Positions 25,150 to 57,484 of a stretch of 64,000 nucleotides of DNA are shown here, one piece after another. The stretch lies in the NCBI GenBank assembly GCA_033182465.1, contig CP137322.1:2604001-2668000 (forward strand). The letters run 5' to 3'. The stretch's first letter is position 1, and each line of letters opens with the position of its first letter. The translations under genes were made by a program, and so were the position numbers. The notes under the pieces are model-generated. The model did no database searches. It had not been told where the DNA came from and saw nothing but the letters and a program-made list of their open reading frames with translations. Source of the DNA: Sanghuangporus weigelae. Taxonomy: Eukaryota > Basidiomycota > Agaricomycetes > Hymenochaetales > Hymenochaetaceae.

Positions 25150-25825
25150 GTTGTGCGCAAACCAGAAAAGCAAGATTTGGATGCTCGCCGATCACTTATC
25201 AAGAAGATTTACAAAGTCTTGAAGCTGCAGCAAGGTCAGGGAACCGGTAGCAGTCTAGAGTGAAAATTCAGGTGGACAGAAGGAGGAAAAAAGACAGGTA
25301 ATGCTGCAAATGCTGAAGCAGCAGCGACAGCAAAGAGTTCACAGGTAAGTTTGCTGGTATGAATCTCTTTCCGAAAAGATACTAATATTCTATGTGCTTC
25401 TTTATAGGCCAGTTTACGCTGCACCAGGGTATACAGAGAACTCAAGTTTTCTCAGATGGTCTTGTGTCACCTTGGAGGGGCAGATATCAGTAAAGATAAA
25501 CCTCTTCATCGGGGAAGGTTTGGGGTGGTATTTCTCAATGGTCAGTTGCTTGTAGGCAAAGGTACGGTTTCGTTCCGGCTACCATAAACTTTCTTACTTA
25601 TTCTTTCCCTTTAGTTTTGTCTATACTCACAAAATCGGGCGGTCAAAATGGCAAACATGTGGAATTGCAAGACGCAACAACTATTGGTCAGACCTTATAC
25701 ATCTCACTTCAAACGTTCGAACATACCTTGAATCATATGTTCTGTAAGGTTCATTTGTCTCGGTCTCACCTTCATGTTGATTCCTTTGCGCACTGTTATC
25801 CATATGAGCTTTTATTTGCACTACC

Positions 25826-27631
25826 GGTGTAGCGCACTGGCCTCTCCTGTGCCAGTACACTCATACTATGACTCCCTCCCACTGCAGATACCATATCCCA
25901 GTGCCGCCTACACCTCAGAGTGTGAGAGCATACTCCTACTGCACTCAAGACACCATTTGAGCACGTTTCCACCGATTCCAGCACATGTACTGTACTGCAG
26001 TGCCCTCCTAAGGCCCAGATTAATCCGCCGATGGCTCTCTGACACTCAGACAGGTTTGCCAACAACTCCTACCCAGCACCAGGCACTATAGGACACATCC
26101 CTCAGTGACTACAGGCTGCCGATCTTACAATTTACCGTATATACAGCCTTGCAGCAACTCTGGACGCCTCCGAGTCGGCCCCCCATGGTGCCGATTGATG
26201 CGGCGGACACTCAGACATCCTCAGGTACCTTCGCCGATGCCTCCTACAGCTTACCAAGCAGTCCCCCATTGCCTAGGGAGCTATACATTGTCATATGTGC
26301 TTACATACCTCATTATGACGTATCTGCCACCAGTCCAGCAGTCCCTTGCAGCACTGCCACTCCAGCCACTCATATTAGTCACTAGGGATTGCCCACACTC
26401 TGTATTGAGTGCCGCCGATGCATCGGACACCTTAGGAACACTGACTGATGCGCCCCTTGTCTCATATATGCAATATTAGCCTCCGATCATCGGCTCCGAC
26501 GTTTCCCAACTTCCCCCCAATGTAGTGGCCCCCATTAGACCATGTATAGAAGGTAGGCATGTGGTATATTGGCGTGCCAAGCCGCCGACTTGTGCCGCCA
26601 AGCCCAACTCCACTGGTGCCTGTATTATTGCAGATACTCGATATTCCATGCCATTGGACGCCTCCCTCACGTTGCCGCTTGCAGATTTCACCTGGGCACT
26701 CCGGCAGCAGCCCTTGGTGACCCAGATGACTCAGGAGATGTTGTCAGACAGTAGGACATGTCGGCAACAGCAGCAGAATATATATAGAGCTTATATTAGG
26801 TTGGTAGACAGGAGATCATCTTAGAGGAAGTGAGCATGTACCAGTCCAAGTGCCGGAGTTTGAGATATCCCTCACTCTGAGTCCCCCCTCTTGTACTGAG
26901 CTCCCCCCTTGACTATATACTATCTTTGACATCTGCTCTTGCTTGACTCACCATTCTACTTGCCTTTGCCGCCTCTGATATGCCTCGGCCACTCTGACAT
27001 TCAGTGAGTGAGTAGGGCTTGGGATTTAACCCTGAGCCTCCTCCTCGCACTTTGTACCTCATCGGTGCCCCTCTATCTGACGTTGGCGGCCCTTCAGCAA
27101 CACAGACCTTCTATCAGACCCTTCTGCGGCACCCTTTCCAGCCTTTCACCCCAGCTTAGTCTATATACTCATCTTATACAGTCCTTTCCTTTCATCTATC
27201 ACATTTACGCTACTTCGGCAGATTTGTGCAGCCTTCCCCTCCTTCCTGTACCCCTCTATTTGACATCGGCGGCTATCCAGCAACACAGGGATAGAACCAG
27301 ATGACCCAGTGGCGCCTTCTCCACCCACTCACTCCATTTTATCCCTTATATTCATCTCATATGCTCCTGCCGACCCTGTGTCCGAGTTTCCACCATGTCA
27401 GCAGCCTCCTGTGATCCCCCCTTTTGAGCGGTGGCCCTATTAGCTTATTCCTTTCATACTTCGGCATCCCTACACTCCTCCATCACGTCTCTGACGGTCC
27501 CTGGCACCTGCTGGGTAGTGGGGATTTAGAGTCTGATAGCGTCGGCATCTCGTTTTTGGAGGTTTCTTCATACATTCAGCACCCTTAGTAGGACGGACAT
27601 TGGTAGTGCCTTCAGAGACACACACCACCCA
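25826..27631 (+). repeat. R1 repeat, copy 2, inside T1
   Basis: Starts GGTGTAGCGCACTGGCC and ends near CACCACCCA. The flanks are CTACC on the left and CTACA on the right, a possible 5-bp target duplication with one mismatch. It has a TATA motif at about 26,780, followed by two units of about 175 bp (ACCTCATCGGTGCCCCTC / CTGTACCCCTCTATTTGAC, 27,050-27,300). It cuts the T1 transposase gene. It is CpG-rich compared with the copies near 54-56 kb. Confidence 0.6.
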
Positions 27632-27771
27632 CTACACCAGATGTTCCGAAGGATAAGAACAATGGTGTGTCAATCGAGCTTTCGGAAACTTCGTTCAGGC
27701 TCTGGTGGAGTGTTCAGGGCTACTTGGGTGTATTTCCACTTGCTATGAAAGGCTTCAGAAAGAAAAAGTAA

Positions 27772-28226
27772 CCTTGTTTTCTTATGTTGCTCCTATATTA
27801 TTCCTGATAGCCACCTTGTAATTCTGTCTGGGAGAAAAATGCATTGCATTTTTCATTTTTTATACATGAGCTACTTGACACAAAATCTAATCAAAAGCTA
27901 CTTGATTTGAGGGACCTCTGCGAAAATCTGGACAATTTGGAGCCTATATGAAGGCCTCCGCCAGAATCTGGATAATTTGAAGCCTCAAAAAGGGTATGCC
28001 TGAGGTTTTCCGGATAAAACGGGCGCAAAGCGCCCGAAAAATTCCAGCTATCATTTTTAGGATCCGGATCAGGCATCTATTGGCATTGACAGGGGTCCTG
28101 ATAGAGGTTACAGATAGAGATAGCGAGACGAGATAGGAGCAGCCGAACCACAACTCGTGAGATAGAGATTATCAATCTCTATCTCACGAGATCGTGATCT
28201 CTTTTTTTGGCGCGCGCTATCGAGTT
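27772..28226. other. T1 right subterminal region
   Basis: Non-coding. It carries the inner inverted block (28071-28102), inverted relative to 18086-18115, and a perfect hairpin of CTCACGAG..GAGATAGAGAT type at about 28,150-28,192. Confidence 0.6.
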
Positions 28227-28240
28227 ACCCGAACAGGCTC
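28227..28240 (-). repeat. T1 right terminal inverted repeat
   Basis: ACCCGAACAGGCTC followed by TTA at 28241-28243. Confidence 0.85.
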
Positions 28241-28516
28241 TTATTTATTATTTCTGTTACTGTAATTGTTGTGCTGTTGGAATATATCGATTTTCGTTAC
28301 ATTCTTATTGGGCGGTATAGTGAATCTGAAGAATAATCACGTAAGGTCTAGATATATATAGGCCATTGGCACCAAGTAGAGTAGAAAACTATTGATAAAC
28401 TAGAAGTTTCAAGCGACTACGAGCACAGTATAACCTGAAGTGATATCTTACGCGGGTCCGTAGGGAGCGGAATCGGTGTGAGGTGCTACTAAATAATACA
28501 GATCTAGATATTGGAC

Positions 28517-33916: not shown

Positions 33917-36291
33917 ATGGCAGAGAACAAGATCCTTCACCGTGTGATTCGTAGGCTCGCAGGCTGGGCGGTCTGGTCTTTCTTCTCTGAAGTACATATC
34001 ATCGGCGAAGAAAACGTGCCAACAGATGGACCATTGATTGTGTATGTCCCGTCTAGAATATTGTTCGATATACAACCTAGGAAATGACGAGCGCATTCTA
34101 GTGTTGCAACGCATCATAATATGATGCTTGATCCGGCCGTTTTATGTGAGCAAAGATACTCTCAAGTGTTCAAAGAAAACACGCTCTGACACGAAGACAA
34201 GCGTCCTACTTCCCCCACGAACGGATACTCAATTATTGGACAAAGGCTTCTCTCTTTGCTAACTCGGTGCTTAAATGGATCTTACTCAGCTCAGGAAATA
34301 TTCCCGTCGCTCGAAAGAGCAAAGATAATCGTGTCCTGTTCAAAGGCACTTTTGATGTCCTTGCTCGCGGAGAAGCGGTTGCACTCTTTCCCGAGGGAAC
34401 GAGCTATACAGAACCTCGTATCATGCAAGTCAAGGACGGCGCCTCCTGGAGCGCACTCGAGTACATGAAATGGGCAAAGGAAAATCCCGACAAGACCGTC
34501 GACAAGCCGCTTCTGGTTGTCCCAGCGGCGATCGTCTACACGAACAAATCCAAGTACAGAAGCCAGGTGCGCATGATTTGTTCGGATCTGGCGTAAACTC
34601 ACGGCTTTCTTGCTTTTCATACTTAAGGTTATTATTGAGTACGCATCTTAAATCTAGTGCTACGCGAAAATTGATGAAATCCAGGTTTGGCGAACCTATC
34701 TCGATGACGGACTACGAGTCACAGTTCTTGTCCGCTGTCGAAGGTGAACCCCGCGTAGCGGTTAAGAGGTTGACGCAACGTATTGAAGACGAGCTGACTC
34801 GTGCTACCATAAATGCATCCGACTGGTAAGAGCTTACTATTTAATATTCATGCACAATAAGGATAAGTCTTGTTTAGGGATACTCTTTATGCCGCGCGAA
34901 TGGCTCGGAGCATATTGTGGGAAAAGAGCAAATCGATTGACCTGAATGATTTCGTCGCCGTCTCTCAGACGTGAGTGTTTCTTATCCTTGATTCTTCCTG
35001 TCAGACAAATTAGATTTGAATTATTTTAGTCTCGTCGACTTGTTCTCAACTCCAAATGCCACACCCAATTTCGTGCAGGTACGGTGCCGCCTCTTGGAGT
35101 ACTACTCTTTATTGCAGTCATCGAAGTTAAACAATTCTGCCCTGGCTTCTCTTCCGCTGCCGAAGACGCTGGACCCACGACGGGCGGAGCCATTGCCCTC
35201 TCGATTACGAACTCTCTTTGTCTTACTACGCGACACCCTTTCGATTCTTGTCAGGATCCCACTTTTCCTATTCCCGTTAGCTGTGCATCTTCCCGCATAT
35301 CTGGCTTCTCAGGCAGCTGCACGCCTAGTCGAAGATGAAGAAGAGACCCAAGCACAGAACAAAGTTGTCTTCGGACTTATACTCCTTATAATGATCTATC
35401 CGGCCGCGTTCTTTTTCTTATGGGCATTGTTTTGGTACACTCCGGCTGGCGCTCTTGTAGCAGCCGCGATCGTTTGGTTGTTCGCGGTATATCATGTGAA
35501 AATGATCGATGGTGAGGTCATTCATCTAAATCTCGTACGGCGGATATAGACTAATCTATGTTCAGATGTCTATGATCAGTAAGGCTTGACATTCTTCAGA
35601 TGATGCCGATTCTGATCGCTTTGTAAATAGCGCGAAACAGCTTGTTGTGGCATGGCGCGTACTAGTTGGCGTATGGTCTCCGAAGAATACTGAATTGTCG
35701 ATAACCGCGTTACAGCAATATTTGACTCCAAAGACACCTGCAGAAAATCCGTGGATTGACAAGAACAAGTCGAGAAGGCCGGAAACCCAGTCGCCGACGT
35801 CAAGTTCATCTCAGAGAGCGAACCCTGTTGGAATATCTTCTGCTCAGGTACAAGCGAAAACTCGAGGCCGCAAACGCTTGCCACCCACGCGTCGGCTCAT
35901 TCGGCATGTCTTACGGGCTCGGGCTCGTGCTGTACATGCCCTTGCGTCGTTCTTCGCCGAGCTTGAACGAGCTCCAGAAGAAAAGCATGTACATGCGAGC
36001 ACACACCTCGCTCGAAGTTACGGTGGTTTTTCAAACTCTTCTGTTGATGAAGATGGTGTGGTCTCTGGACAACAGGGTTGGCGCAAAGCTCGCGAGGTGC
36101 TAAAATTTTTGCGAGACCGCGGTGCAAATTTTTCGTCTCTTGAATCGCAAATTGCGGATGACTATTGGGCCGAGAGCCGAGCGATCCTTAGCGATCCCGA
36201 GGAAGATGGGGAGACGGAATACAGTAGCGACTTTCCAGAAAGTTCTCCGGGAGACGAAGACCTAAAATGGGTCGCGCCCGCGATACAATGA
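33917..36291 (+). CDS. Glycerol-3-phosphate/DHAP acyltransferase, GPT2/SCT1 type
   Basis: Makes lysophosphatidate (or acyl-DHAP), the first step of glycerolipid synthesis, at the ER. The start MAENKILHRVIRRLAGWAVW is at 33917. The PlsC-type acyltransferase motifs are visible: THHNMMLDP (HX4D-type motif I, in a short exon at 34,102-34,145), GNIPVARKSKDN, LFPEGTSYTEPR (motif III) and LLVVPAAIVY. Two close hydrophobic helices follow near residues 390-450 (ILVRIPLFLFPLAVHLPAYL; VVFGLILLIMIYPAAFFFLW), then LVAAAIVWLFAVYH. The long Ser-rich cytosolic tail ends at 36291 (LKWVAPAIQ). At least six introns. This is the last ordinary gene before the repeat island; its stop is only 12 bp from the TIR element's target duplication. 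Confidence 0.9.
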
Positions 36292-36307
36292 TTATTCCAC
36301 AGCGTCC

Positions 36308-36640
36308 ACAGCGGACAAAGAGTTATTTAAATTCGAAATAAATTTGTAATTACTTGACAAACAAACAAGATTTGAAATTATATACTGCATTTAATTACGT
36401 GAAATATTTTATATTTGTTCCTTGACAGAACTTGAAATAACAATAAGGATTTTGATTCGGATTAGGAAAACAAAGAGATTTCAAATAATGTCATGTGAGA
36501 AACACATAAAGAAATTTGAAGTCTTAGAAAAGTAAAAATGCTTACATTTAGTTTTTGCCGAGATTTCAAATCTTTGATAGGAAGAAATTTAAAGTTCTTT
36601 TTCTTATTTTGGCAAGGAAAAAATAAGTTTGGCTCTCAGT
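36308..36640 (+). repeat. Left long terminal inverted repeat of the Pack-type element
   Basis: AT-rich. It matches the reverse complement of 45598-45926 with only scattered differences and small indels, so the element is probably young. Confidence 0.85.
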
Positions 36641-36748
36641 GGGCACTCAGTGGGTGATCGGCGGGCACTCAGTGGGTGATCGGCGGGTGATCACTGGGCA
36701 ATTAGTGGGCAATTGGCGGGCACTCAGAGGGTGATCGGCAGGCAATAG
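36631..36748 (+). repeat. Left subterminal array of 11-bp units
   Basis: About ten units of GGG(C/T)(A/G)(A/C)T(C/T)(A/G)G(T/C) type, such as GGGCACTCAGT and GGGTGATCGGC. Arrays like this next to the ends often bind transposase. Confidence 0.8.
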
Positions 36749-36759
36749 GAAGGAAGCCA

Positions 36760-37536
36760 CCTTCAGATCTGTAACATTGACATAGTAGCGATGCTCAAAT
36801 TTGCAATCATTGATACCGAACGTTTTAATGCTCTGTCTCTTAGTGAAAGTCTCATCCATGCCATCTTTGCCATAGACGAACTGTATGAGATCACCCAACG
36901 AATTCCAAACAGTCCCGTTATAATGTACCATGGTCTTCTAGAGCCTTGACAAGCCACCATTGGACATAGCCAATCTCTGCTATCTTGACAGCCATGTCAA
37001 TTAATCCCTCGCAATCCGCCATGGTGTGAAAGAAGAACTCTTGCAGTGTTAATCCACGCAAGTAGGAATTCTCGATAAAACCCCATGCCTCTGGACTGAA
37101 ATCATCCTTCATGAAGTGCGGTAGTGTTCAATGTCTAAAGCCGAACAGGATACGCTTCCCTTCCATGGATTGCTGACTGATGCAAACAGACATCTGGGAG
37201 ATGTTGATGAAGGAACCCTTGGAACCAGTGACTACCATCTGCTTGACATCATTGTCCTCTTTGAGGTTCTCCTGAGCATATTGACCAGAGGGATCACGAG
37301 CCAAATTGAGCTCCCGTTTGACTTGACTCTTGAAGAATTTGTGGATAGTCATATCCGGAGCTGCTTTCAGGTGATCCATGGCCGCATCTTCTATGACTTT
37401 GGCAACATTCTGTTTCTGCATCTTAATCTGCTCTGTGATATACGCCATCGTTTTTCTGTCTGCAACCATATCACCGATACCGATACTGAATCCACTGTGG
37501 AACAGTCAATAATTGACGATATTCTGCAGACCCGTA
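36760..37536 (-). pseudogene. RPB1 (RNA polymerase II largest subunit) fragment, downstream part
   Basis: The minus strand reads YITEQIKMQKQNVAKVIED, ELNLARDPSGQYAQENLKED, QMVVTGSKGSFINISQMSVC, then [40 protein letters not shown] and NSLGDLIQFVYGKDGMDETF. These are the conserved blocks around the funnel and bridge-helix region of RPB1. Several Arg codons are changed to Trp, Gln or Cys (for example EARGF to EAWGF, AGREG to ADCEG), the signature of C-to-T decay at CpG. It ends where the 11-bp array begins. It is continuous in sense with the piece at 44612-45510, from which the Gypsy insertion separates it. Confidence 0.85.
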
Positions 37537-37986
37537 TGTTAGGCGGCGAGACTAACAGACGTCGATCTCGAGGCGGCCAACACAACAACAAACAACAGGC
37601 TAAACACGAGTTGTCAAGCTAGACGCAAGCTATGTCGAAGTGAAGGTAAGTAGAATTCAGCAAACTAGTAGTACAAGAGTAGGTACCTATGTCGAAGTGA
37701 AGGTAAGTAGAATAGAAAGACAAGGAAATGAAAGAGTCAAACTAGCTACTTATATACACTTTGGATGTGGGAAGGGCCTACTCTATTAAGGTATCACATG
37801 ATGAACAAGTGGAGTGATTAGTGAGTGTCTTAGTCGGAAGGAACAGATTTAGTCACGGTGAATGAGTAAAGATGAATAAGCCATGAGGGAGCAAACGGGA
37901 TTGGTAGAAATGGATGAATAATGTGAAAGAAGAATAAAATGAATGATGATATAAGAAAAGAAAAGAAAAATGTTTGAGTCCTAACA
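37537..37986 (-). repeat. Gypsy LTR (3' LTR in element orientation)
   Basis: 450 bp. Contains two copies of a short AGTGAAGGTAAGTAGAAT motif. Confidence 0.9.
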
Positions 37987-40288
37987 TCACCCTCCCTTCA
38001 AGGTTGGGCGTCCTAACCAACCACATAAGCCTTCCGACGACATGAACTTGTACATGGAACAAAGATTTTGACAAGGTATTGATAGTCTTCTTGGAGCCCC
38101 TAGATGCTTTCGATAAAATTCTTTGACTGCTTCCTTAGCATTATCTCCAACGTCTGATTCAGGCTGCCATGTTGCTTCATTATATCTAACCCACTTGACG
38201 AGGAATTGAAGCTTTCCTCGATGTAGACGTGAGTTGAGTATTTCTTCGACCTCATATTCTTCTTTGTCTTCGACAATGATGGGTGGTGGCGATGGGGGTT
38301 TCCTTTGAGATTCGAATGATGGTTCAACAGCCGGTTTGAGTAAGACTTCATTGAAGACAGGGTGTACTTGTCTCCATGTGCGAGGCAATTTGAGTCTATA
38401 TGCGCTCGCACCAACCTTTTTGACGACTTCAAAAGGACTGAACCATTTATCATCCATCTTCTTCGTTGGACGTATTGTCTTTATATTTTGTCCATCAAGG
38501 AAAACCTTATTACCAGCCTCATATTTCACCACCTTGCCTGCATGATGATCGTAGAAGCGTTTCATGTTGTCGTTGTCTTTGACCAAGTTTACTTGAGCGA
38601 GTTCGTGTACATCCTTGACATGTTTAGCGAATTCCTCTGCCAACAGATTTGCTGAAGACGTTCCAACATTTGTGAACCCCATCGGGTGGACTCCCATATT
38701 GACAAAAAAAGGAGACAACTTCGTCACTGAATGCTCACGATTGTTATACGCAAATTCCACCAGTGCTAGCCAGTCCGCCCAATCTGTTTGCCAATGGTTG
38801 ACATATAGGCGCAAGAATTGTTCAAGTTCTTTGTTGACACGTTCCATTTGGCCATCGGTTTGGGGATGGTACGCTGTTGATGGGTTTCCTTCAATGTGGA
38901 GGAGTTTATATAGCTCCTTCATCATCTTGGCTTCAAATTGTACGCCTCTGTCGTATATAATCTTTCGAGGTAGTCCATGTAAACGAAAGACGTGATCTCG
39001 ATAGATCTTTGCCATGCCTTCTGCAGCCAGCTTTGTCGTTGTTGGGATTGCATGGATCTGTTTGTTAAAACAATCAACTACCACGCATATGGTGTTAAAC
39101 CCATTTGACTCTGGTAGCTCTCCAATCAGGTTGACCGTGACAATTTGCCATAGTGCCTCCGGCACCTCGTTAGGGTGCAAAACCTTTGCTCTCGTTACTC
39201 TTAGAGCTTTCGTTTGCTGACAACAATCACACCCGCGTATGTAATTCCAGACATCGACATGGATGTTAGGCCACGAGAAGCTTCAGCTTACCATCGCCAC
39301 CGTCTTGTTCGCTCCTGGATGTCCGGCCAATGCCAAATCGTGGCATTCCCTCATCACTGCCTCTCTAACACTAGTTGGTACAAAGACGTTCCAGAACTTC
39401 TTCGTCGTTGTTCCTGACAACTTGGTTGTCACTCCCTTCTTCCATAGACCATCTTTGAACTCCAGGTTTGACGGTCTGTCCTTCTCATCCATCTCCTCCT
39501 GCGCTCTCTTGATCACTACTATGAGCACGTCCCTCGACGTTTCTACCATACCTCTGACCAACCATTCCTCCTTGATGAATGTTATATCTTCATTATCATG
39601 TTCACCCTTGTCGTAGTCTGCGTGACATGACAGAAGATCGGCTTTCCCTAACGTCTTTCTGGGTTTGTGTACTAGCAAAAAGTTGAATTCAGCAAGATCG
39701 AGTCTCCAATGCACTTGTCGACGATTCAGTTTCTGAGGAGACCTGAAATACATCAGGTTTGCATGGTCAGTCCAGACCTCGAACAGTGCATTGGCTCCTT
39801 GAAGGTATTGTTGCCATTCTTTGAGCGCTTGAACGATGGTGAGCATCTCCTTGTCATAGATCTTATAATTTTGTTCAGCGTCCAGAAATGTCGACAATCG
39901 ATACACGATAACCTTCCATTTGCCATCCTGTTTTTGAAGGAGTACGCCACCTGTTGCAAAGTCTGATGTGTCAGCTTCTACATGAAAAGGGTCGTCGTTG
40001 TTTGGAATGGCCAACACCGGAGGACTGCTCAATTGATCCTTCAACTCTTTGAACGCTCGTTATTCCTTCTCTCCTCACTTCTATTCCACCTTGCCTGTTA
40101 GAGATGTTAGCGGTTTGACAACTGAGCTATAGTCCTTGACAAAATGGCGTAGCCAGTTGCCTAGACCAAGGAACTGTTGTAATTTGTGAACGTTCTTTGG
40201 GACTGGCCATTCTTGTACTGCAACCGTCCTTTTTGGGTCCATATGTACCTCGCCATTGCCAATGATATGTCTGAGGTATTTGACTGTA

Positions 40289-40434
40289 CATCAGGAAAAC
40301 AGTCCAAACTACCTACAGCTATTCACAGCTACCAAAGCTACTCACTACTATAGGCTGCTATGTAGTGGCCTATAGTGGTGAGTAGCTGTGATAGCTATGG
40401 ATAGCTGTGGATAGTTTGGACTGTTTTTCTGATG
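40289..40434 (+). mobile_element. 146-bp TA-flanked MITE inside the Gypsy element
   Basis: Inverted ends CATCAGGAAAACAGTCC and GGACTGTTTTTCTGATG with TA on both sides (40287-40288 and 40435-40436). The whole element folds into a hairpin. A half copy lies at about 52,555-52,672. TA duplications fit the Tc1/mariner type. Confidence 0.75.
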
Positions 40435-43400
40435 TACTAACTTCAAACTCACACTTCTGTGGCTTCAGGAAAAGTTTGTTTTGTCGAAGGATTTTGAAGA
40501 CTTGTCTAGTTCGTTCACGATGTTCTTCCAATGTGTCTGAGAAGATGAGTATGTCATCAAGGTAAATGATAATGATGCCTTCATGGATCATCTCTCGAAA
40601 GATGTCGTTCATGAATCCTTGGAACGTTGCTGGTGCATTACATAGTTCGAAGAACATTACCGTTGGTTTGAACAGTCCCAGGTTCGTCCTAAACATGGCT
40701 TTCCACTTGTTGCCTTTGTGAATCCGGATGTTATAATATCCCCAACAGACATCGAGCTTGGTGATATACTTAGCGTCCTTGACCTTGTCAATGAGCTCAT
40801 TGATTAGGGGCAAGGGATACTTGTTTTTGACTGTTCCCTCATTGAGCTTTCGATAGTCTTGGATTGCTCACAAACTCCCGTCTTCCTTCTTGATGAAGAA
40901 GAACGGTGACGCCATTGGAGATTTTGACTGCCTGACACATCCTGACGTGAGGTTTTCTTCAATGAACTCCTTCATTGCCACCTGTTCCTCAGGTGACAAT
41001 GGATATACCTTGCAATCACTTGGCTTGAAATCCGGTTTCAGGTCGATAGCATGGTCCCACGTCCGATGAGCTGGTAACTGCTCGAACGATTCCTCGCTAA
41101 AGACGTCTGTATACTCCTCGAGGTATGAAGCAACGAACTACACCTTCCTCACGTACTCGTCATCTGCTTCCTCTCTCAACAACATAGATGCACATTCGTC
41201 AGGACAGCAGGTGAAGTTAATCGCACCAGCCTTCCAGTCGATCTCTGGATTATGTTTCTGTAACCAATCATGACCAAGGTTGATGTTACTTGATGCTAAT
41301 GATGTTACGGCTAGGTGAATTTCCTCCTCATGTTTTCTGAAGATCATGCATACTACCACATATTCCTTAATCAGTCCGCCTTCGTTGCTTGTACTGTTGG
41401 TGTTGAAGACTGGTCTTGGTCGTATATATTTCTGAGTTGGGAATCTGTAGTGTTTGACAAACCCTTCGTCAATGCAGGAGCCTGTACACCCCGAATCAAT
41501 GAGTGCATGAGCATCAATGAGATTTTCTTCCTCTAAAAGAGGGTTTGAAACGTCAACCTCATCATTATTTGCTACCTTCGGGTGTACGATACTGACAAAA
41601 GCATCGAGTTCCTTTCCACCGCTTCGTCTGACGAACTGTCCCGATGTTACATCCTCTATGCCCTCGCACCATACTTCAGCTGCATGCCTGCCAACAACAT
41701 CCCACACTGCCTCAGTATTGTTCACCTGGGCAACAACGTTCTCACGGTAAGGTTCTTCCATCACAACCTCATTTTTTATAGCAGTTTGAATCTGCTCATC
41801 TGCTCTTAACACGTTTGAGTCGCCTCCTTGCATACTCGCTCTTCTGATGAACAAGTTGTTATAGATGTTGAAGTCATCACTGTCTTCTGACTCTTCTGGG
41901 TTTACGTCGGACAGGACTTTTCAAAGGTTGAAACTGCCTTGTATTGTCGCATCTAGGTAGTGTACATCGGGGCAATTATATTTTAACGAACGTGATGAAA
42001 AAAAGAGTCCTTTAACCGTGTGACCAGTTGTTCCGACATCTATGCCTGGTCGTCCTGAAAACCCTCACCATCAACTATCTCTTCCAGCTCAGCCAGTACT
42101 GCTCGCACGTCAACATTGTCAAAGTCGGATTCCTTTGTGTTGCCGAGCTCTTCGAGTAGTGCCAGTCTGTCTTCTGGTTCAAAAGCAGCAATGATGGACC
42201 TGATCGCCTCACGGCCGCGTGGGCAATCTCTGATGAAGTGACCGGTTTGGCCACACTTGTAGTATGCGTGTTGAGCATACACTTGATTCATGGCGACGTC
42301 CATGGGTTGACCCATTCCTCCATACGTTACTTCTGTTGCATCTCGACAATCCGCTTGATGGAAGGGTTGAGGGTTTGGAATGTAGGGATGTACAAACTGT
42401 TGCTGCATTGGACATCGTGGTTGTGGAGCTGGAATCGTCCTTTGAATTGTCTGAATTAGATTCCGTTGTCTACGCTCGGCGAACAAATCCCTGATCTGTC
42501 ACTTCGTTTGATCAACCTTAATTGCCCTCTTTTTCCAGTCGGCATACTTCATTGGCTCAGGTTCTGTTCGCATGACGCCTTCAATGACCTTTGGGTTCAT
42601 GGCCTTTCTGAGGCGACTGATCAGCCAGCTATCGTGTGCCTCTTGTGTCAGACCTGCATGCATGCGATAGATGTCAAACTCATTGAAGAATCTGTCTGCA
42701 TCATCGTCGCCTTGGTGTAACTCTTTGAGTTTCTGGAAGGCCTTGTGATGACGGCTGGGGTCCATGAATGACTCATCGCGTTGGTCTAAGAACTCCGCCC
42801 ATGTCTTTGTAAAGTTCAAGTTGCCGTTTATTACGGGTGTTGTTTCAACGTAACTCTCAGCCCATGTTGCAGCTTTACCCCCTTTTAGGTACAAGAGAGT
42901 AAATATGATTTTGTCGTTATCTGACTTGAACTTTGATGGATACAACTGAATGAACAGGCGGATTTCCCGCTTGAAGTATTTCCCGCTTGAAGTTGGGATA
43001 ATTGTTTCCTCTCTGGTACTCTTGTGGTTTGGCTGTTCCAATTTTCTCCGATGATTTCGCCATGTTTTCACTTCCTACCCCATTTGTCTAGAGAGCAAGG
43101 GCAATCGCAACACCTAAGTCTTCCATCTGCTTCTGACTGAACGATATTGCTTCGTGTTCATTGGGTTCAGACGTCGTGCTTCAACTACTGATTGGTGGTT
43201 GTGGATCTCTTAGTTCTGTGAACAATGTTGATGGTTGAAGAGGAGGTGCAGGTATAATGACTTTGGGTTTTGGGGCGACTGGCGGAGGTATCCTTAATGT
43301 CGAGGCTTCTGTTGTCATTGAACGTGCAGACTGTTGTTGCACAAATAACTTAGTGTTTGCTCCTGGGTTTGGTGCCCAAGGAAACCAAATGCCCTTTGAG

Positions 43401-44161
43401 TCTTGCGACTTCCAAAACTTTCATGTGTCGTCCCACTCAAGGTCGTAGAGAGTGCCATGTAGTTTCCCTTGGTAACAGTTTCCTGTTGCGCTCCAATGAA
43501 CTTGTGGAAGGGCGAGTCGTTGCTCATCAGTTAGATTCACCTTGATAGCGAGGGGGTGGGACGGGGATCGGCGTGTTTGGACGGGCCCGACCTCAGATGT
43601 TCGGCTCGTCTTGGAAGTTGATAACTAAACGGAAGACTTCCAAGTGGATGACAAATGAGATACTTATTGATGATTGAACTCTTCAAGTTACCCATACCTC
43701 AGCTGATTGCCTCACCAGATGCTAATTCGTAGCACCACGTTGACTAGTCTTCTTCGATCTTAACCTCTGGCTCTAGATAACGTTGACGTTTGAGCGTTCT
43801 TGGCAGCGGTCCTTCAATGTGAGTCAGTACTCGTTTGCCTTGCTTACTTAAGGCAGAGATGATGTCATTTGGGTCAAAGTCAGGGTGGTTGTGTACGTTG
43901 TCAAAGGGAGTGATGAAGTGCTTAGTTCGTGCATGTTGACATTCGCGAGGTTGGTAACGAGTCTGATAACGAGTGGGTGCCAGGGTGATTGGTTGTTTGT
44001 TGAAAATATCAAAACACGTCAGTGTTAAACACCAACAGGCTAGATAGGGGTTGCTTGGATGAGTCCGGGATGGGCGTGATACGGTGATTGTTGATGTGAC
44101 TCCTTGCGTGGAGCAATGATAGCGAGTGTTTCCACAGGCTAGAGGATAGGTCTTTCTATTA

Positions 44162-44611
44162 TGTTAGGCGGCAAGACTAACAGACGTCGATCTCGAGGCG
44201 GCCAACACAACAACAAACAACAGGCTAAACATGAGTTGTCGAGCTAGATGCACACTATGTCAAAGTGAAGGTAAGTAGAATTCAGCAAACTAGTAGTACA
44301 AGAGTAGGTACCTATGTTGAAGTGAAGGTAAGTAGAATAGAAAGACAAGGAAATGAAAGAGTCAAACTAGCTACTTATATACACTTTGGATGTGGGAAGG
44401 GCCTACTCTATTAAGGTATCACATGATGAACAAGTGGAGTGATTAGTGAGCGTCTTAGTCGGAAGGAACGGATTTAGTCACGGTAAATGAGTAAAGATGA
44501 ATAAGCCATGAGGGAGCAAACGGGATTGGTAAAAATGGATGAATAATGTGAAAGAAGAATAAAATGAATGATGATATAAGAAAAGAAAAGAAAAATGTTT
44601 GAGTCCTAACA
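44162..44611 (-). repeat. Gypsy LTR (5' LTR in element orientation)
   Basis: 450 bp, about 97% like the other LTR by eye. Confidence 0.9.
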
Positions 44612-45510
44612 CTGTAAAGAGCGATCATGTAGCTTCAGGACCTTTCTCTCGGAAAACAACGTACAGCAGGCCGCCCTGAGATGCATTAACGGTCTTCTTT
44701 CTCAACAATACCAAAGATGAGCTCACCATTCTCGATCAGTATGCCATCATCGAAGACAGGACTCCATGACTTGTTCTCGGGCAACTGGAAAATGTTGATC
44801 CCACGTGGGATTGTCATGCTAAGAATTTGCTTGCACGTCCATAAAAATTGGGTTTCAAAATGGTTGGTGTTAGGATTGTGCCATCCCAATTCGGTACCCA
44901 AAGCAGTATATCATGTACTTGTTGCCAATCAAGGGAACAACCTTGCAAGGTGAACTTGCGGATACCGCAAAGAGTATCCTACACAATACCAATAACAGGC
45001 TTGTTCACTTGGGGTGAAATGATCTGCCTGGGGACCCATTCTATTTGACTGAGCTCGGCCCGAGTCTCCTCACTCTGGAGAACACTACACAAAGATGAGA
45101 AATGACATCACAAGGAGGCAGTGATACGACATACTGCATGTTCATTTCATCACCATCAAAGTCGGCATTGTACGGAGGAGTAACGGAAAGATTGAGATGA
45201 AAGGCTGCATAAAATTGGTCAGAGTTCAGACATGAACATATAGGTTGAGCACGTACTTGAATAGAGCATTAGTCGGACCCTGTGATGCATCATAGACATT
45301 TTATGGGTGCAATGATGGTTGTCTGTTGAAGAGGACATAACTGCGTTGATAGATAAATGAGACTAGATCAGGCGCTACTGAATGGTAGACTTACTCTCCA
45401 TTCATTAAGTGCCTTTCAAAGATCTATCCATACTGAAGAAATGCATCTGCATGCTTATTTTATTGAAGAGCTATATAGAGGATGCATGGACTGGTTAAAC
45501 ATTGTATGTA
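44612..45510 (-). pseudogene. RPB1 fragment, upstream part with two introns kept
   Basis: The minus strand reads ERHLMNG, then after a GTAAGT..CGCAG intron YVLFNRQPSLH. A GTACGT..TGCAG intron is followed by [20 protein letters not shown], the catalytic magnesium-binding loop of RPB1. Then come [33 protein letters not shown] and QGGLLYVVFREKGPEA. The conserved NADFDGDEM motif makes the identity clear. Introns with proper splice sites show that the copy came from DNA, not from mRNA. There is no N-terminal clamp and no CTD. It is a fragment corresponding roughly to the middle third of the protein, with decay changes, and cannot be a working polymerase subunit. Confidence 0.88.
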
Positions 45511-45524
45511 TAGTGAAATATCAG

Positions 45525-45597
45525 GATTGCCCGCTGAGCGCCCTCTGATCGCCCACCAATTGTCCACCGATCACCCACTGAGCACCCACTGAGAGCC
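45525..45597 (-). repeat. Right subterminal array of 11-bp units
   Basis: Inverted counterpart of 36631-36748; about six units read on the minus strand (GGGTGCTCAGT, GGGTGATCGGT and variants). Confidence 0.75.
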
Positions 45598-45926
45598 AAA
45601 CTTATTTTTTCCTTGCCAAAATAAGAAAAAGAACTTTAAATTTCTTCCTATCAAAGATTTGAAATCTCGGCAAAAACTAAACATAAGCATTTTTGCTTTT
45701 CTAAGACTTCAAATTTCTTTATGTGTTTCTCACATAACATTATTTGAAATCTCTTTATTTTCCTAATCCGAAAAAAAAATCCTTATTGTTATTTCAAGTT
45801 CTGTCAAGGAACAAATATAAAATATTTCATGTAATTACAAAAATGCAGTATATAATTTCAAATCTTGTTTGTCAAGTCAAGTAATTACAAATTTATTTCG
45901 AATTTAAATAACTCTTTGTCCGCTGT
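45598..45926 (-). repeat. Right long terminal inverted repeat of the Pack-type element
   Basis: Inverted copy of 36308-36640. Confidence 0.85.
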
Positions 45927-45930
45927 GTCC

Positions 45931-46137: not shown

Positions 46138-46139
46138 TA

Positions 46140-47223
46140 CAGCTAGTTGCTGTATTGTTGGCAATCACGTGATTTCACCACTTCTCTCGCTATGAGAGCC
46201 TCAAAACACAGATAAAATCATATCTCACCCAAATCTCAACAGTTTCACATCATCTAAGTTACTAAATTCATCTTTTCAAAAGGGCTTTCGTTTAGGAAAA
46301 ACAATTGAGAGAATAGAGCAAAAAAGGACCCCAAAATGATGAAAATATTGTTTTTTGCCTCTTACATGCATGTGCATTTTTTTCTGTGATCCCTGCTGGT
46401 CCAGCACCTCCTCAAAGCTGTCCAGAATGATAATATGACTATAAAATGAATTTACAGACTGAGTTTGAGTTGAATTGTGTACCAGAATGTGCTGCTTTGA
46501 GGCATGCCTGAATCACTCAAAACTCATCATTTCCCCCTAGCCTCCCAGGCTTCAGGAAATTTTCTTACAGGCCAGATTCATGCATGTAAATTTATTTTAT
46601 ATATAATAGACTAGGTTTGTGTACTAGCTAGGGCCTCAGCATCCACTGGTAAGCTGGGCTGAACAAGTGTTTCTAGTTGTATACACTATTCTAGATAGCA
46701 TCTCCCCAGCTTACCAGTGGATGCTGAGGCCCTAGCTAGTACACAAACCTAGTCTATTATATATAAAATAAATTTACATGCATGAATCTGGCCTGTAAGA
46801 ATTTTTCCTGGAGCCTGGGAGGCTAGGGGGAAATAATGAGTTTTGAGTGATTCAGGCATGCCTCAAAGCAGCACATTCTGGTATACAATTCAACTCAAAC
46901 TCAGTTTGTAAATTCATTTTATAATTATATTTTCATTCTGGATAGCTTTGGGGAGGTGCTGGACCAGCAGGGATCACAAAAAAAAATGCACATGCATGTA
47001 AGAGGCAAAAAACGAGATTTTTGCCATTTTGGGGTCATGTTTTGCTCTATCTTCTTGATAGTTTTTTCAAAACGAAAGCCCTTTTGAAAAGATGAATTTA
47101 GCAACTTAGATGATACGAAACCGTTGAGATTTGGGTGAGATATGATTTTATCTGTGTTTTGAGGCTCTCATGGTGAGAAAAGTGGTGAAATCACGTGATT
47201 GCCAACAATTTTGCAACTAGCTG
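46140..47223. mobile_element. Foldback element, 1,084 bp, with arms of about 520 bp
   Basis: Left arm 46140 to about 46,665, right arm about 46,710-47,223, loop of about 45 nt. The arms match over nearly their whole length by eye. The ends are CAGCTAGTTGC and GCAACTAGCTG, with TA at both flanks (46138-46139 and 47224-47225), as in Tc1/mariner-type MITEs. No coding. A transcript through it would fold into one very long hairpin. Confidence 0.85.
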
Positions 47224-47225
47224 TA

Positions 47226-51560: not shown

Positions 51561-52554
51561 GCTGTCAGACTCTTTTATATTCCCATCCTTCAAAGTCACG
51601 ATGGCAAGGCGTTTCAGCTCAGTGGGCTCACTTCATTACCTTTCCTTTGAATTGCTGTTCTAGCTATTGGGAGGTCTGTGGTTCTTGGGTACTCTGTCCC
51701 TGCCGCAGCTGGCAGCCTAAGTGTAGAGGCAGTATGTTAAGTGCTGCTGAACCTGTGCACTTAGCCAGGGCGACATCTATCATACTGTGGCTATTTGCTA
51801 GCCAACTGGAGGTGTGCTATGCGCTGCTGAACCTGTGCCACTTAGCTGGGGTGGCGCTAGTGCACTCTGACCTTGTGTCAACCAGTTTGGTCCTTGAAGC
51901 CAGTGGAAGTTCCTTTGTCCTGCCAATGGTGTCCAGTATTAATGCCTTTGACCCTTTGTTACTCCCGACAAGTAGCATCAGTCTATATTAGTATAGGTGT
52001 ACATGAGTGTATGCCTAGCTCACATAATAGACTGGTGGTGTAGGATTCATGCACTTTATAGATATTATCTATTTGTAAACATATTACTGATGCCCTACTA
52101 GAGGATTGCATAGTCCTGTAGTACGCTATACAAGTGATTCATTGCATGTGTGCATGAGTCTGTAAGTGGTATACTAAAGATATATTGAAATTTGCTGTAT
52201 TATATTTAAAATTAATAAAAATTTAATGTGTTTTTTGACATTCTGGCAGTCTCTACTAAGTACTATCTTCTATTCATTGTAATACATGACTATCTGCATC
52301 TATAATATGCTATGGCAATATATCATCTAATATGAACTATCAATTATAAGCATCTAGTATCAGCTATAAACTTGTAGTAATCACTATAAGGTATTATACA
52401 CTATGCACTAGTAGTACTATAAACCTGTACCAATTACAATAGGCTGCTATATATTATGCACTATTTATCTCTTTCTAGCATTATGAATAAATATTGACTA
52501 TATAACTATATCATCTATACACTGTTACAGACCTCTCTATAGTAGGGGGGTTCA
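51561..52554. other. Unclassified, AT-rich to the right
   Basis: Two approximate repeats around GCTGCTGAACCTGTGC (about 51,740 and 51,813). From 52,020 the sequence is AT-rich with simple TATA-type runs. No gene seen. Confidence 0.35.
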
Positions 52555-52672
52555 CGATAAATCGCTATGAACTGCTAACCTACTATAGACTGTTATAGTG
52601 GCCTATAGTGGTGAGTAGCTGTGGGTAGCTGTAGGTAGCAGTGAGTAGTTTGGACTGCTTTTCTGATGTGCT
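52555..52672 (+). mobile_element. Half copy of the 146-bp MITE
   Basis: GTGGCCTATAGTGGTGAGTA and TTTGGACTGCTTTTCTGATG match the right half of the MITE at 40289-40434. The left inverted end is missing or too decayed. Confidence 0.65.
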
Positions 52673-53569
52673 CCCTAATGCATTGAAGGCTTAGGTTTGG
52701 ACAATTGTTATAAATAGACATGCTATTTGTGTAGTAGGAGTTCAGTTCAGTTCAGTGAACAATCAAAGTTCCTCTCAACTCTCTCTGTACTCACTTGACT
52801 CTCTCGACTCTCTTAAATATACAATAGTTTTGTGTTATACATCTTGTGTCCTCTGCCCCACAGTTGCACCCAAGTTCTGTATGATTGGTTCAACTTGTAT
52901 TGCCATTAGAGACATTTCTCTCTCATCTCTACACTCATTGTACTCTGTCTCATCTGAGTCTTCAGCATATCACTTTGTTCTACTTTGTACTACCTTGCAT
53001 TACTTCATGTCTCATCGTAACTTGTCATACCGTATCAGATCCTCTTATAAGATCATTATCATATCATCCTACATTTGAGGTATCACTCTCTAAGCTTCAT
53101 CTCATCGTCTCACCATCTCTTCATCCCTAGAGTTCGAATCTGCTGTTGAATTACCTAAAGAAAGTCCCTTTTAGTCTTTGTACTGTCACTGCTGATACCC
53201 CTTGCTTTAACTTCTTCTACTTGTTTCTTTGCTACTTCCCCACTTTAACTCTCTACCCTCACATACATTAGCAGCCTTTAGAATCTCAACTCACCTTCTC
53301 CCTCTGGATCGACTCTGGAACTTATCTCATCACTTTAGAACTTCTCTTACCTCGGTTCAAAGTCACCCTCTTCCAGTCTCCTCATCTTGAATTACAGAAC
53401 AGCCCCAATTCAAACTGTGACACTCCTCTACTAATAGACAGTCTTTAGGAGTTTTACTACGGCATGATATATATCTGCTGCAGCATAACAAGTAGCCACA
53501 CAAGATTTCTACATAGGTTTACAGGAGAGACCAGAGAGGTGGCACTGAGATGCAGTGTAGGAGTTGTGG
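52673..53569. other. Unclassified pyrimidine-rich stretch
   Basis: Contains TTCAG repeats near 52,740 and CTCT-rich runs. No convincing coding region. Confidence 0.35.
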
Positions 53570-55018
53570 GTATCGGTACTACAGATGTCTATCTTACTAA
53601 GAGAGCTGAATGTATAAAGAAACCTCTAATAATGAAAGTCTAAAGCTATCAGACTCTAACTACCTACTATCTGTTGAGTACCAGTAACTATCAGAGATAT
53701 GTGGGAGGGATCTAGAGATGCCGAGGTGTAAAAGGAATGGGCTAATAGAGGCACCAGACTGAAGTGGAGGTTACACGAGTCAGCTAAAGTAGTGCAAACT
53801 CAGTAAATTGAAAAATAGAAGGTGTATATGATGAATACAAGGGCTCAATACATGGAAAGAACACTGGGCCATCTGGTGGGAGGCCTAGGTCGCCTAATAG
53901 GTATCAAGGTCAAATAAGAGGGTGCTGGACAGAGAGTGAGGCCACACAAATCTGCTGTAAGGTAAACTTGGTCAATAGAAGATAGAAAGTGTATATGATG
54001 AATATAAGGGGATAAATAGATGAAAAGGACACTATTAGGTCATCTGATAGGAAGTCTGGGTCACCGGATAGGTGCCAAGATCAAATAGGGGAGTGCCAGA
54101 CAGAGAGGGACTCAGAGGCCATATAAATCTGCCAAAGTAGCATAAACTTAAAAATGGAAGACAGTAACTATATAAGGTGAATATAGAGGATAAAATGGAG
54201 TGAATGGCTAGAGAGGGTGCCATAGGGAAGTATCTGCAATACTATGGGTGCTGGTGGAGTTGAGCTTGGCACGCTGATGTACCATATACCTACCTTCCAT
54301 ATTTGGTCTAAGAGCACCTGCCCAGTTGGAGGAAAGTCTGGAAACATCAGGGCTAGTAATTGAAGGCTAATATTGCATATATGAGACAAAAGGTGCATTA
54401 GCCAATGTCCCTAGCCTGCCCGATATGTTAGCCACACTCAATACAGTGTGTAGGCAATCTCTGGTGACTGATATTAGTGGCTGGTGTGGCAGAATGGTGG
54501 CTGTGGCTGTCACCAGATCGGCGGAGGATACAATAGAAATGAGTCTATCCACCGCAGATGAGTGCAGATAACAATAGATAGCTCCATAGAACCTGGGCTG
54601 CCTGGTAAGCTGTGAGAGGCTTTGGAGAGGGCACCTGAGGATGTCTGAGTGGCCCCTGTATCAATTGGAGACATTCAAAATTGCTGCAGGACCTAACATA
54701 TGATGAATTGCAAGATTGATGGTCCATAGTCACTGGAAGATATATCCTATAGTGTCTGGTGCTAGGTAGGAGTCCTCAGCAGATCTGTCTGGGTGTTAGG
54801 GAGCCAGCGGCGGATCAATCTGGGCTATTAGATACTACTGCGGTGCAGTATATATGCTGGAATCAATGGAAACATGCTTAAATGATGTCTTGAGTGTAAT
54901 AGAAGTATGCCCTTATACTCTGAGGCATAGGCAGTGCTGGGATATGGTATCTGCAGTAGGAGGGAGCTATAATATGAGTGTCCTGGCACAGGCCAGGATA
55001 GGGCACTACAGCAGCACC
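53570..55018 (-). repeat. R1 repeat, inverted copy
   Basis: Read on the minus strand it follows copy 2 in order: start CTGTAGTGCCC, a middle part, then the tandem units of about 175 bp (plus-strand 53,817-54,150). It faces the next R1 copy head to head across about 95 bp. It is CpG-poor compared with copies 1 and 2. Confidence 0.6.
53817..54160 (-). repeat. Tandem units of about 172 bp inside R1
   Basis: GTGTATATGATGAATA recurs at about 53,820 and 53,993, and a weaker third unit near 54,165. They correspond to the two units in R1 copy 2. Confidence 0.65.
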
Positions 55019-55112
55019 AAGGCAACGAGATGAACATAAGGCAGAACTTATGAGAGCAGCAGATCATAAGGCAAAACTAGAAGAGCGTGTTGGAATGGTA
55101 CTGGAAGGCAGC

Positions 55113-56511
55113 GGTGTAGTGCACTGGCCCCTCTTGTGCCAGTACACTTATACTATAGTTCCCTCTCACTGCAGATATCATATCCCAGTGTCGCCTACAC
55201 CTCAGAGTGTGAGGGCATACTCCTACTGCACTCGAGACACCATTTAGCACATTTTCATCTATTCCAGGACATGTACTGTACTGCGGCACTCTCCTAAGGC
55301 CCAGATCGATCCACTGATGACTCTCTAACACTCAGACAGGTCTGCCAACGACTCCTACCCAGCACCAGGCACTATAGGACACATTTCTCAGTGACTATAG
55401 GCTGCCAATCTTACGATTTACTATACATACAGTCTTATGGCAGCTCTAGATAGCTCCAAGTCGGCCCCCCATGATGCCAATCAATACGGTGAACACTCAG
55501 ACATCCTCAGGTACCCTTGCCAATGCCTCCTACAGCTTATAAAGCAGTCCCCCATCGTTCAGGGAGCTATATATTGTTATATGTGCTTACATGCCTCATT
55601 ACGACATATCTTGTTAGAAGTGTGATCCCTGACACTCTTACTATTTTGTAGTTTATTGTTCTGTTTCTATTCTTCCTTATGTCCGCTTTCTTGATCATGT
55701 GATGCTTATGTAATCCCCTGTAAAAGCGGCACAGTCCATTGGTGAGTACTCTACATCAAGTGTACTCACCACTGGACTCAGGTATGTAGTTAGACTGTTA
55801 ATAACATCAAGTGTACTCACCACTGGACTCAGTGGTCCCTTGCTAGATTTGTGTGTTTAACATATCTGCCACTAGTCCAGCAGTCCCCTGCAGCACTGCC
55901 GCTCTGGCCACTCATATTAGCCACTAGGGATCGCCCACGCTCTGTATTGAGTTCCACCAACACATCAGACACCTCAGGGACAATGACTGATGTGCCCCTT
56001 GTCTTATATACGCAATATTAGCCTCCAATCATTGGCTCCAATGTTTCCTGACTTCCCTCTGATGTGGTGGCCCCATTAGACCATGTATGGAAGGTAGGCA
56101 TGTGGTACATTGGTGTGCCAAGCTGCTGACTTGCGCCACCAAGCCCAACTCCACTGGCACCCGGATTATTGCAGATACTCAATATTCTATGCCATTGGAT
56201 GTCTCTCTCACATTGCCGCTTGCAGATTTTGCCTGGGCGCTCCGGCAGCGGCTCTTGGTGACCCAGATGACTTAGGAGATGTTGTCAGACAGTAGGACGT
56301 GTTGGCGACAGCAGCAGAGTATATATAGAGCTTATATTAGCTTATAGCTTAGAGGTATCATAGTGTACACCAGTAGACTGCACCAAGGTTTGAGATATCT
56401 CTCACTCTGAGTCTCCCCTCATGTACTGAGCCTCCCTCTTGACTATATACTATCCTTGACATCTCCTCTTGCTTGACTTACCATTCTACTTGCCTTTGCC
56501 ACCTCTGATAC
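55113..56511 (+). repeat. R1 repeat, copy 3, cut by two Copia insertions
   Basis: Starts GGTGTAGTGCACTGGCC and follows copy 2 to about GCCACCTCTGATAC, where the Copia element A begins. Its TATA motif is at about 56,320. A Copia solo LTR lies inside (55612-55862). The remaining part of this R1 copy should lie beyond the right edge of the window. Confidence 0.65.
55612..55862 (+). repeat. Copia solo LTR in R1, with exact target duplication
   Basis: 251 bp, TGTTAGAAG...TTTAACA, flanked by TATCT on both sides (55607-55611 and 55863-55867). Same LTR family as the elements at 56.5 and 62.1 kb, in the opposite orientation. Confidence 0.85.
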
Positions 56512-56744
56512 TGTTAGATCACACAAGTCCAGCAAGGGACCACTGAGTCCAGTGGTGAGTACACTTGATGTTTATTAACAGTCTAACTACATACCTGAGT
56601 CCAGTGGTGAGTACACTTGATGTAAAGTACTCATCAATGGACTGTGCCGCTTTTACAGAAGATTACATAAGTATCACATGATCAAAAATGCGGACATAAG
56701 GAAGAATATAAATAGTAAGAGTGTCAGGGATCACACTTCTAACA
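56512..56744 (-). repeat. Copia A 3' LTR
   Basis: 233 bp. Contains direct repeats around CCACTGGACTCA seen also in the other LTRs. Confidence 0.85.
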
Positions 56745-57484
56745 CTCCCCTCTGATCTGACACTTCTTCCTTCAACATAATCCCAGCATCCTACACATCT
56801 CTCGCACCTTCACTCTGTTAGTGCTTTGGTCATAATGCCAGCTGGCATGGTCTGAGTAGGCAAGTAATGCACTTTAATATGACCAGCCTCAACAACATCT
56901 CTCAACCAGTAGAAGTGCAGATCCAGGCGCTGCATACGTCCATGATGCTCAGGATTGTTTGCCACAGAGCAGACTGGTTATCAATGTACAGGGAAGAGAG
57001 TGCATCAAACTTGTAGCTAAACTCTGTGAAGAGATTTCTTAGCCACATGATCTCTTGTCCTGCACTGACAGCAGCAATGTATTCTGCTTCAGTGGTGGAC
57101 AGAGTCACAAAGGGCTGTAGCTTGCTAGCCCAGCTGATAGCACCAGTTCCCATCTTGACAACCATCCCACTTGTGGAGCGTCTGTTGTCCTTATTTCCTC
57201 CATGATCAGCATCACAGAAGATAGTAAACAGCTCAGGGGACTTAGGATCAGGTGCATAAGTTAGCCTGAAATCCTTTGTACCCTGCAGATAGTGACATAG
57301 ATGCTTTGCTGCCTTCCAATGAGCTGGACCAGGATTGGAACTAAAGTGTCCCAAGACACCAACTGCATAGGTAATGTCTGGCCTAGTAGCTATAGCCAGA
57401 TACATGAGTGCACCAACCAATTGCTTATAGGGCACTTGCTTCATGTATTCAGTCTCTGCAGGGGTCTTAGGAGCCATGTTCTTG

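Follow-up and report, generated by a model that had tools for sequence, protein, structure and literature searches.

Why does a piece of RPB1, the gene for the largest subunit of RNA polymerase II, lie between two long inverted repeats? This question is raised by positions 36308-45926 of the 64-kb stretch of DNA that we analysed (the window). The answer that we consider highly probable is that a non-autonomous transposon with terminal inverted repeats (TIRs), about 2.5 kb long and with a 4-bp (less likely 2-bp) target site duplication (TSD), captured genomic RPB1 in a presumed mushroom-type fungus. A host of this kind, or a basidiomycete, is presumed from the original prediction and from our impression of the gene structure and the transposable-element content. 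The original prediction had proposed a TIR element enclosing a fragment of a core gene, and this stands: the element is flanked by a short TSD, and on both sides the RPB1 homology comes near the inner edge of the TIR.

Inverted repeats and target site duplication

The ends of the element and its target site are:

36308-45926: whole TIR element between the target duplications, 9,619 bp
36307-36702, plus strand: left TIR, 92.5% identical to the right arm over 402 alignment columns
45526-45927, minus strand: right TIR, pairs with the left arm
36636-36742 (approximate limits), plus strand: subterminal 11-bp tandem units, inner end of the left TIR
36304-36307: left TSD, GTCC (alternative: TC at 36305-36306, with termini CACAG..CTGTG)
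45927-45930: right TSD, GTCC

When the window was compared with itself, the two TIR arms paired with E = 3e-163, and they are 100% identical across their outermost 52 bp. The inverted ends had been described as nearly identical by eye and about 330 bp long; their length is nearer 400 bp. With the inner 11-bp repeats set aside, 331 of 343 ungapped positions match. Units related to the 11-bp repeats of the left TIR are also found on the right side (45525-45592).

The GTCC that was noticed beside the element is indeed present on both sides. This duplication fits the termini ACAGCGG..CCGCTGT, and together they give exactly 36308-45926. The pre-insertion (empty) site would read GATTATTCCACAGCGTCCCGATGG, with a single GTCC. 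No exact TSD of 3 bp or 5 bp was found, nor any longer TSD at boundary offsets of -3 to +5, where one mismatch was allowed for 7 bp and two for 8-12 bp. In the left flank (36298-36316), CACAGCGTC immediately precedes the TIR tip CACAGCGGAC, and the target resembles the tip; this resemblance could reflect either chance or a target preference.

The boundary can also be placed differently, as the terminal complementarity covers the outer C/G. The termini are then CACAGCGG..CCGCTGTG (CACAG..CTGTG), and the TSD is the 2-bp TC. The element would belong with the CACTA/EnSpm-like transposons (CMCT; 5'-CA..TG-3' termini and a 2-5-bp TSD) and would be Pack-CACTA-like. We regard this family assignment as possible but doubtful: ACAG..CTGT with GTCC explains more of the flanking bases, and TIRs of 400 bp are unlike those of CACTA elements, which are short.

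In the self-comparison, no other copies of the TIR ends were found in the 64-kb window. The TIR tip has one further match in the window, with 3 mismatches, which is near the chance level. A 20-base tip pattern and a 23-base internal pattern had no exact matches in collections of viral and prokaryotic DNA (viral_contigs and genome_contigs), where fungal copies are hardly expected.

The cargo is genomic RPB1 DNA

Between the TIRs, both parts of an RPB1 fragment are read from the minus strand:

44617-45435, minus strand: upstream part of the RPB1 fragment, starting at QYG (residue 433 of 3h0g)
36747-37536, minus strand: downstream part of the RPB1 fragment, to about residue 909, then a short EGGFLP motif recognized by eye
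45341-45394, minus strand: retained intron A, GTAAGT..CAG, 54 bp
45205-45256, minus strand: retained intron B, GTACGT..CAG, 52 bp
45085-45134, minus strand: retained intron C, GTATGT..TAG, 50 bp

The motifs NADFDGDEM and SKGSFINISQMS, from which the original prediction had recognized RPB1, are both present in the fragment. A 125-aa open reading frame (ORF) matches the Rpb1 chain of PDB entry 3h0g (E = 1e-37) and the Pfam family RNA_pol_Rpb1_4 (2e-21). The conceptual fragment, spliced and with its stops written as X, aligns to residues 433-909 of 3h0g (E = 4e-185, 619.5 bits), to residues 428-909 of 5x4z, and to residues 427-904 of 7ui9. (We take these reference chains to be from S. pombe for 3h0g, Komagataella for 5x4z, and S. 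cerevisiae for 7ui9.) The EGGFLP motif was assigned to RPB1 by eye and presumably belongs to the fragment as well.

The homology extends almost to the TIRs. On the left side, about 5 bp separate its limit (36747) from the subterminal repeats. On the right side it stops 50-90 bp short of the TIR: the homology is certain up to 45435 and by eye (NKHADAFLQYG) extends to about 45475, and the edge of the TIR is at 45526.

The three introns are GT..AG gaps whose removal restores the RPB1 reading, and they are located where splicing is required. Because all three are retained, it was genomic DNA that was captured and not a transcript. The cargo is captured genomic RPB1 DNA, introns included, of about 1.6 kb.

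The arrangement of TIRs around RPB1 is seen at one locus only, and an unrelated palindrome at a distance of 210 bp, with arms of 521 bp, shows that inverted repeats are no rarity in this region. The locus might then be a segmental duplication of part of RPB1, together with two independent insertions, in opposite orientations, of one family of miniature inverted-repeat transposable elements (MITEs). We think this unlikely, as the arms bound the RPB1 segment on both sides, agree throughout their outermost 52 bp, and share a flanking 4-mer. Independent insertions should also each show their own TSD (the inner arm edges were not searched for one).

A retrotransposon and a MITE are nested within the fragment

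The two parts of the RPB1 fragment are separated by a retrotransposon with long terminal repeats (LTRs), which itself contains a MITE:

37537-44611, minus strand: Ty3/gypsy LTR retrotransposon inside the RPB1 fragment, 7,075 bp, broken frames
37537-37986, minus strand: LTR
44162-44611, minus strand: LTR
40289-40434: palindromic MITE inside the retrotransposon, 146 bp, termini CATCA..TGATG, TSD TA

The retrotransposon makes up 7,075 of the element's 9,619 bp. Its LTRs are identical at 438 of 450 positions (97.3%); at the other 12 there are 11 transitions, of which nine are in CpG context. When eight ORFs of the retrotransposon were compared with Pfam, five had matches: Retrotrans_gag, zinc knuckle, RVT_1, RNase H, integrase, SH3_Tf2-1, and Chromo. 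(The rve core, at 30.9 bits, is slightly below its cut-off of 32.6; the integrase zinc domain is above its own.) With its LTRs, 5-bp TSD, gag, reverse transcriptase, RNase H, integrase, and chromodomain, it has the features of a Ty3/gypsy element with a chromodomain.

The TSD of the retrotransposon is CCGTA/CTGTA (5 bp with one mismatch, a transition; the left copy is at 37532-37536). Excising the retrotransposon and one copy of this TSD leaves an element of 2,539 bp and yields SLFTGLQNIVNY, which is a single frame across the insertion site. Therefore, the retrotransposon entered RPB1 sequence that was continuous there.

These observations bear on the question of a transposase. The original prediction saw nothing like one, and we found no DNA transposase: in the retrotransposon region, all Pfam matches of the eight ORFs were to domains of LTR retrotransposons, and among the four ORFs of at least 80 aa in the rest of the element, RPB1 was the sole Pfam match (one of four ORFs), in a scan that covered unbroken frames of this length. 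What the original prediction had overlooked is that most of the 9.6 kb is a Ty3/gypsy retrotransposon (37537-44611).

They also bear on whether the capture could have been mediated by a retrotransposon or by a Helitron, rather than by the TIR element. An LTR element is indeed present inside, but it splits the RPB1 fragment in two and carries a near-perfect TSD of its own, which marks it as a separate insertion, and the three retained introns argue against an RNA intermediate. Helitrons have no TIRs and no TSD; the element has both, and we reject it as a Helitron. Although the Helitrons of Pleurotus carry captured genes (PMC4289320), we consider capture by either of these routes extremely improbable.

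The termini of the MITE, CATCA..TGATG, match those given for PlavakaB transposons (PMC12730594). We considered the palindrome at 40.3 kb as a part of the gypsy element and rejected this, as it has its own TA duplication. The nesting order is plain: the MITE lies in the retrotransposon and the retrotransposon lies in the RPB1 fragment. A second, partial copy of the MITE (40286-40437) is found at 52580-52669 (86% identity over 92 columns).

Decay of the captured fragment

The RPB1 reading contains five stop codons and needs five frame changes, and the stretch upstream of 45435, which was read by eye, contains one additional stop. The RPB1 fragment is dead: it is no source of protein today, and the element is a relic.

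The substitutions in the fragment are biased. At 315 codons that are invariant in the three fungal Rpb1 chains, the fragment deviates at 77 (a count that omits two intron-spanning codons and the EGGFLP residues). These comprise 43 codons that single C>T/G>A changes could explain, 9 that T>C/A>G changes could explain, 14 with transversions, and 11 that need multiple changes. CpG context accounts for 22 of the 43 C>T/G>A codons, and the four stops among the deviating codons are all due to C>T/G>A. As a control, we classified the residues at which one reference chain differs and the other two agree. The 3h0g chain has 12 of 70 C>T/G>A and 16 of 70 in the reverse direction; the corresponding counts are 5/30 and 6/30 for 7ui9, and 0/13 and 5/13 for 5x4z. 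The control was classified at the amino-acid level, at which the fragment has 44/77, and codons were scored as C>T/G>A whenever possible, in the fragment and in the control alike. The difference between 43/77 and 12/70 is significant (p = 1.3e-6, Fisher's exact test).

CpG dinucleotides are also depleted. The observed/expected ratio (CpG o/e) is 0.59 in the RPB1 fragment. Three stretches of nearby genes have values of 1.02-1.21, and the 14 intervals of 1,500 bp that cover positions 1-21,000 have 0.81-1.23. The nested retrotransposon has a CpG o/e of 0.75-0.79. This lower CpG loss suggests that the retrotransposon arrived after the RPB1 piece had been freed from constraint.

Together, the C>T/G>A bias and the loss of CpG suggest that the fragment was subject to cytosine methylation. 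A 2025 survey found that signatures like those of repeat-induced point mutation (RIP) are enriched in ascomycetes only (PMC12543289), and therefore plain CpG decay would be the likelier cause in a basidiomycete host. The original prediction had suggested that partial RPB1 transcripts could matter for silencing; the pattern of mutations suggests that methylation has acted on the fragment itself. It reads like a trace that cytosine methylation left on a captured part of an essential gene, and it raises the question of whether such silencing ever reaches the intact RPB1 gene.

How the element may have arisen

Two models are current for capture by Pack-TYPE transposons (non-autonomous elements with captured coding DNA): either a gap left by excision, or opened while it is under way, is repaired by strand invasion, or two nearby ends are used jointly. 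The element probably acquired its cargo by ectopic gap repair or by aberrant end use at the RPB1 locus. Because no transposase was found in the element, it would have depended on an autonomous relative; the TIRs and the TSD suggest that a transposase supplied in trans by this relative moved the element to its site behind a probable acyltransferase gene. The cargo would then have decayed without selection, with the C>T/G>A bias and CpG loss of methylated DNA. The Ty3/gypsy element would have entered the RPB1 part, perhaps before and perhaps after the last jump of the TIR element, and the MITE would have entered the Ty3/gypsy element.

Several points weigh against this account. A match as good as the 4-bp TSD arises by chance in 1.27% of cases (200,000 random position pairs, with three boundary placements). 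The ends are known from one copy, and mobility rests on a single locus. In the analysis of substitutions, the reference chains stand in for the ancestral sequence, and the 77 differences may include residues that are genuine in this lineage. The depletion of CpG is milder in the TIRs (CpG o/e of 0.83-0.89) than in the cargo, although the AT-rich TIRs contain few CpGs. Nor is depletion special to the element, as the 1,500-bp intervals across 21,001-28,500 also have a CpG o/e of 0.55-0.70. The fragment is just about 60% identical to the three reference Rpb1 chains (279/471, 283/471, and 282/471). Finally, that the RPB1 piece came from the host is an assumption.

The fragment might instead have come from a giant virus or from another species. 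We consider a foreign origin very unlikely. The best matches are yeast-type Rpb1 chains (619.5 bits for 3h0g), as against about 145 bits for the RPB1 homologues of entries such as 8q3b, which we take to be from African swine fever virus, and the intron-like gaps in the fragment also speak against a virus. A different fungus as the donor is compatible with the data. A search of viral_contigs for relatives of the RPB1 piece gave one pattern-match stretch for the 125-aa ORF and 19 for a 57-aa query, none of which was confirmed as a relative.

Relation to known transposons

Pack-TYPE elements (Pack-MULE and Pack-CACTA) are described as non-autonomous DNA transposons of plants with captured coding DNA (PMC8903248). 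The element has paired TIRs with a TSD, encloses a fragment of a coding gene, and has no detected transposase, as the plant Pack-TYPE elements do. It differs from them in its presumed fungal host, in its 4-bp (or 2-bp) TSD, in having a fragment of RPB1 as its cargo, and in being known from a single locus. We therefore file it as Pack-TYPE-like by function, and as a member neither of the MULEs nor of the canonical hAT elements. The original prediction had compared it to Pack-MULEs, which is apt for how the element works and fails as a statement of membership, since no 7-12-bp TSD was found.

MULE/Mutator elements have a TSD of 7-12 bp (PMC10741241); the long TIRs (about 400 bp, where more than 300 bp is allowed) would fit that superfamily, and the TSD does not. 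The canonical hAT superfamily was rejected for want of an 8-bp TSD (5-7 bp in the hAT5-hAT7 variants). Ginger elements are defined by 5'-TG..CA-3' termini and a 4-6-bp TSD (PMC10741241); the termini here, ACAG..CTGT or CACAG..CTGTG, do not fit. Sola elements are given a 4-bp TSD and TIRs of 11-1124 bp in the same paper (PMC10741241). In these lengths the element is like Sola, with its 4-bp TSD (GTCC) and TIRs within that range.

The original prediction implied that gene capture of this kind would be new to fungi, and this does not hold: transduplication has been published for Pyrenophora tritici-repentis (PMC3538342) and Pseudocercospora fijiensis (PMC6710886). The earliest fungal report, from 2013, concerns hAT elements of P. 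tritici-repentis that carry histone H3, with a second case in a Tc1/Mariner element (PMC3538342); the hAT elements of P. fijiensis, from 2019, carry an intronless H3 copy and have 8-bp TSDs (PMC6710886). Like these hAT elements, the one that we describe is a (presumably fungal) DNA transposon whose TIRs enclose captured sequence of a housekeeping gene, and the H3 copies of P. fijiensis have likewise decayed by C>T/G>A mutation (RIP). In contrast, the H3-carrying elements have a hAT transposase or hAT domain and are present in tens to hundreds of copies, whereas the present element has long TIRs, a short TSD, and no transposase that we could find. Furthermore, it retains introns, and the H3 copy in P. 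fijiensis has none. Among the literature matches listed, as judged by their titles and the beginnings of their abstracts, there was no report of capture of RPB1, or of a comparable capture, by DNA transposons in fungi or in basidiomycetes.

In plants, TIR transposons are well known to capture gene fragments at the DNA level, and the fungal cases cited here concern hAT and Tc1/Mariner elements. If the genome is of the mushroom type, a case with retained introns would demonstrate that genomic pieces of genes can be picked up in fungi as well. In addition, one site preserves an ordered series of events: the capture, the retrotransposon, and the MITE.

The neighbouring gene and the rest of the window

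The element lies just downstream of a gene:

33917-36291, plus strand: neighbouring gene, probably glycerol-3-phosphate acyltransferase (GPAT), with its extent and the GPAT name assigned by eye

An Acyltransferase domain (PF01553) was matched on 34150-34596, and the ORFs nearest to the element (34992-35549 and 35590-36291) had no match in Pfam. From the presumed stop codon of this gene (36291), it is 12 bp to the left TSD and 15 bp to the left TIR. Because the RPB1 fragment opposes the orientation of the neighbouring gene, read-through from this acyltransferase-like gene would yield antisense RPB1 RNA. A wider scheme can be imagined, in which a family of intron-retaining, gene-capturing TIR elements, from a superfamily with 4-bp TSDs, shuffles pieces of genes at the DNA level here in the manner of Pack-TYPE elements, and in which convergent read-through makes antisense RPB1 RNA that feeds silencing by small RNAs or methylation on the sequence of an essential gene. 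As a whole, this scheme strikes us as decidedly unlikely.

Beyond the right TIR, by 210 bp, is a palindrome (46138-47225) with 521-bp arms that are 93% complementary and are separated by a 46-bp spacer. Its CpG o/e is 0.20. It resembles a foldback or long-hairpin element and could form double-stranded RNA if it were transcribed.

Between 36 and 52 kb, the CpG o/e declines gradually. Seven 1,500-bp intervals across 52,501-63,000 have a CpG o/e of 0.05-0.27, as compared to about 1 in the first 20 kb of the window, and this region looks like old, methylated DNA that is rich in transposable elements. It includes part of a repeat of about 2 kb (56508-58629 and 62056-64000, 92-94% identity) whose copies adjoin Copia-type fragments (SH3_retrovirus and Pol_BBD). 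An insert of about 200 bp (57485-57691) contains a tRNA-like sequence (Ile, anticodon TAT by ARAGORN, with a match to the Rfam tRNA family) and has GTTCTTG on both sides. The paralogous copy of the repeat has a single GTTCTTG at 63040-63075, which is the empty site of this insert. The insert is a small tRNA-bearing mobile element. Finally, 25825-27610 and 53575-56510 contain related repeats, in both orientations and with 74-86% identity, which belong to an older repeat family.

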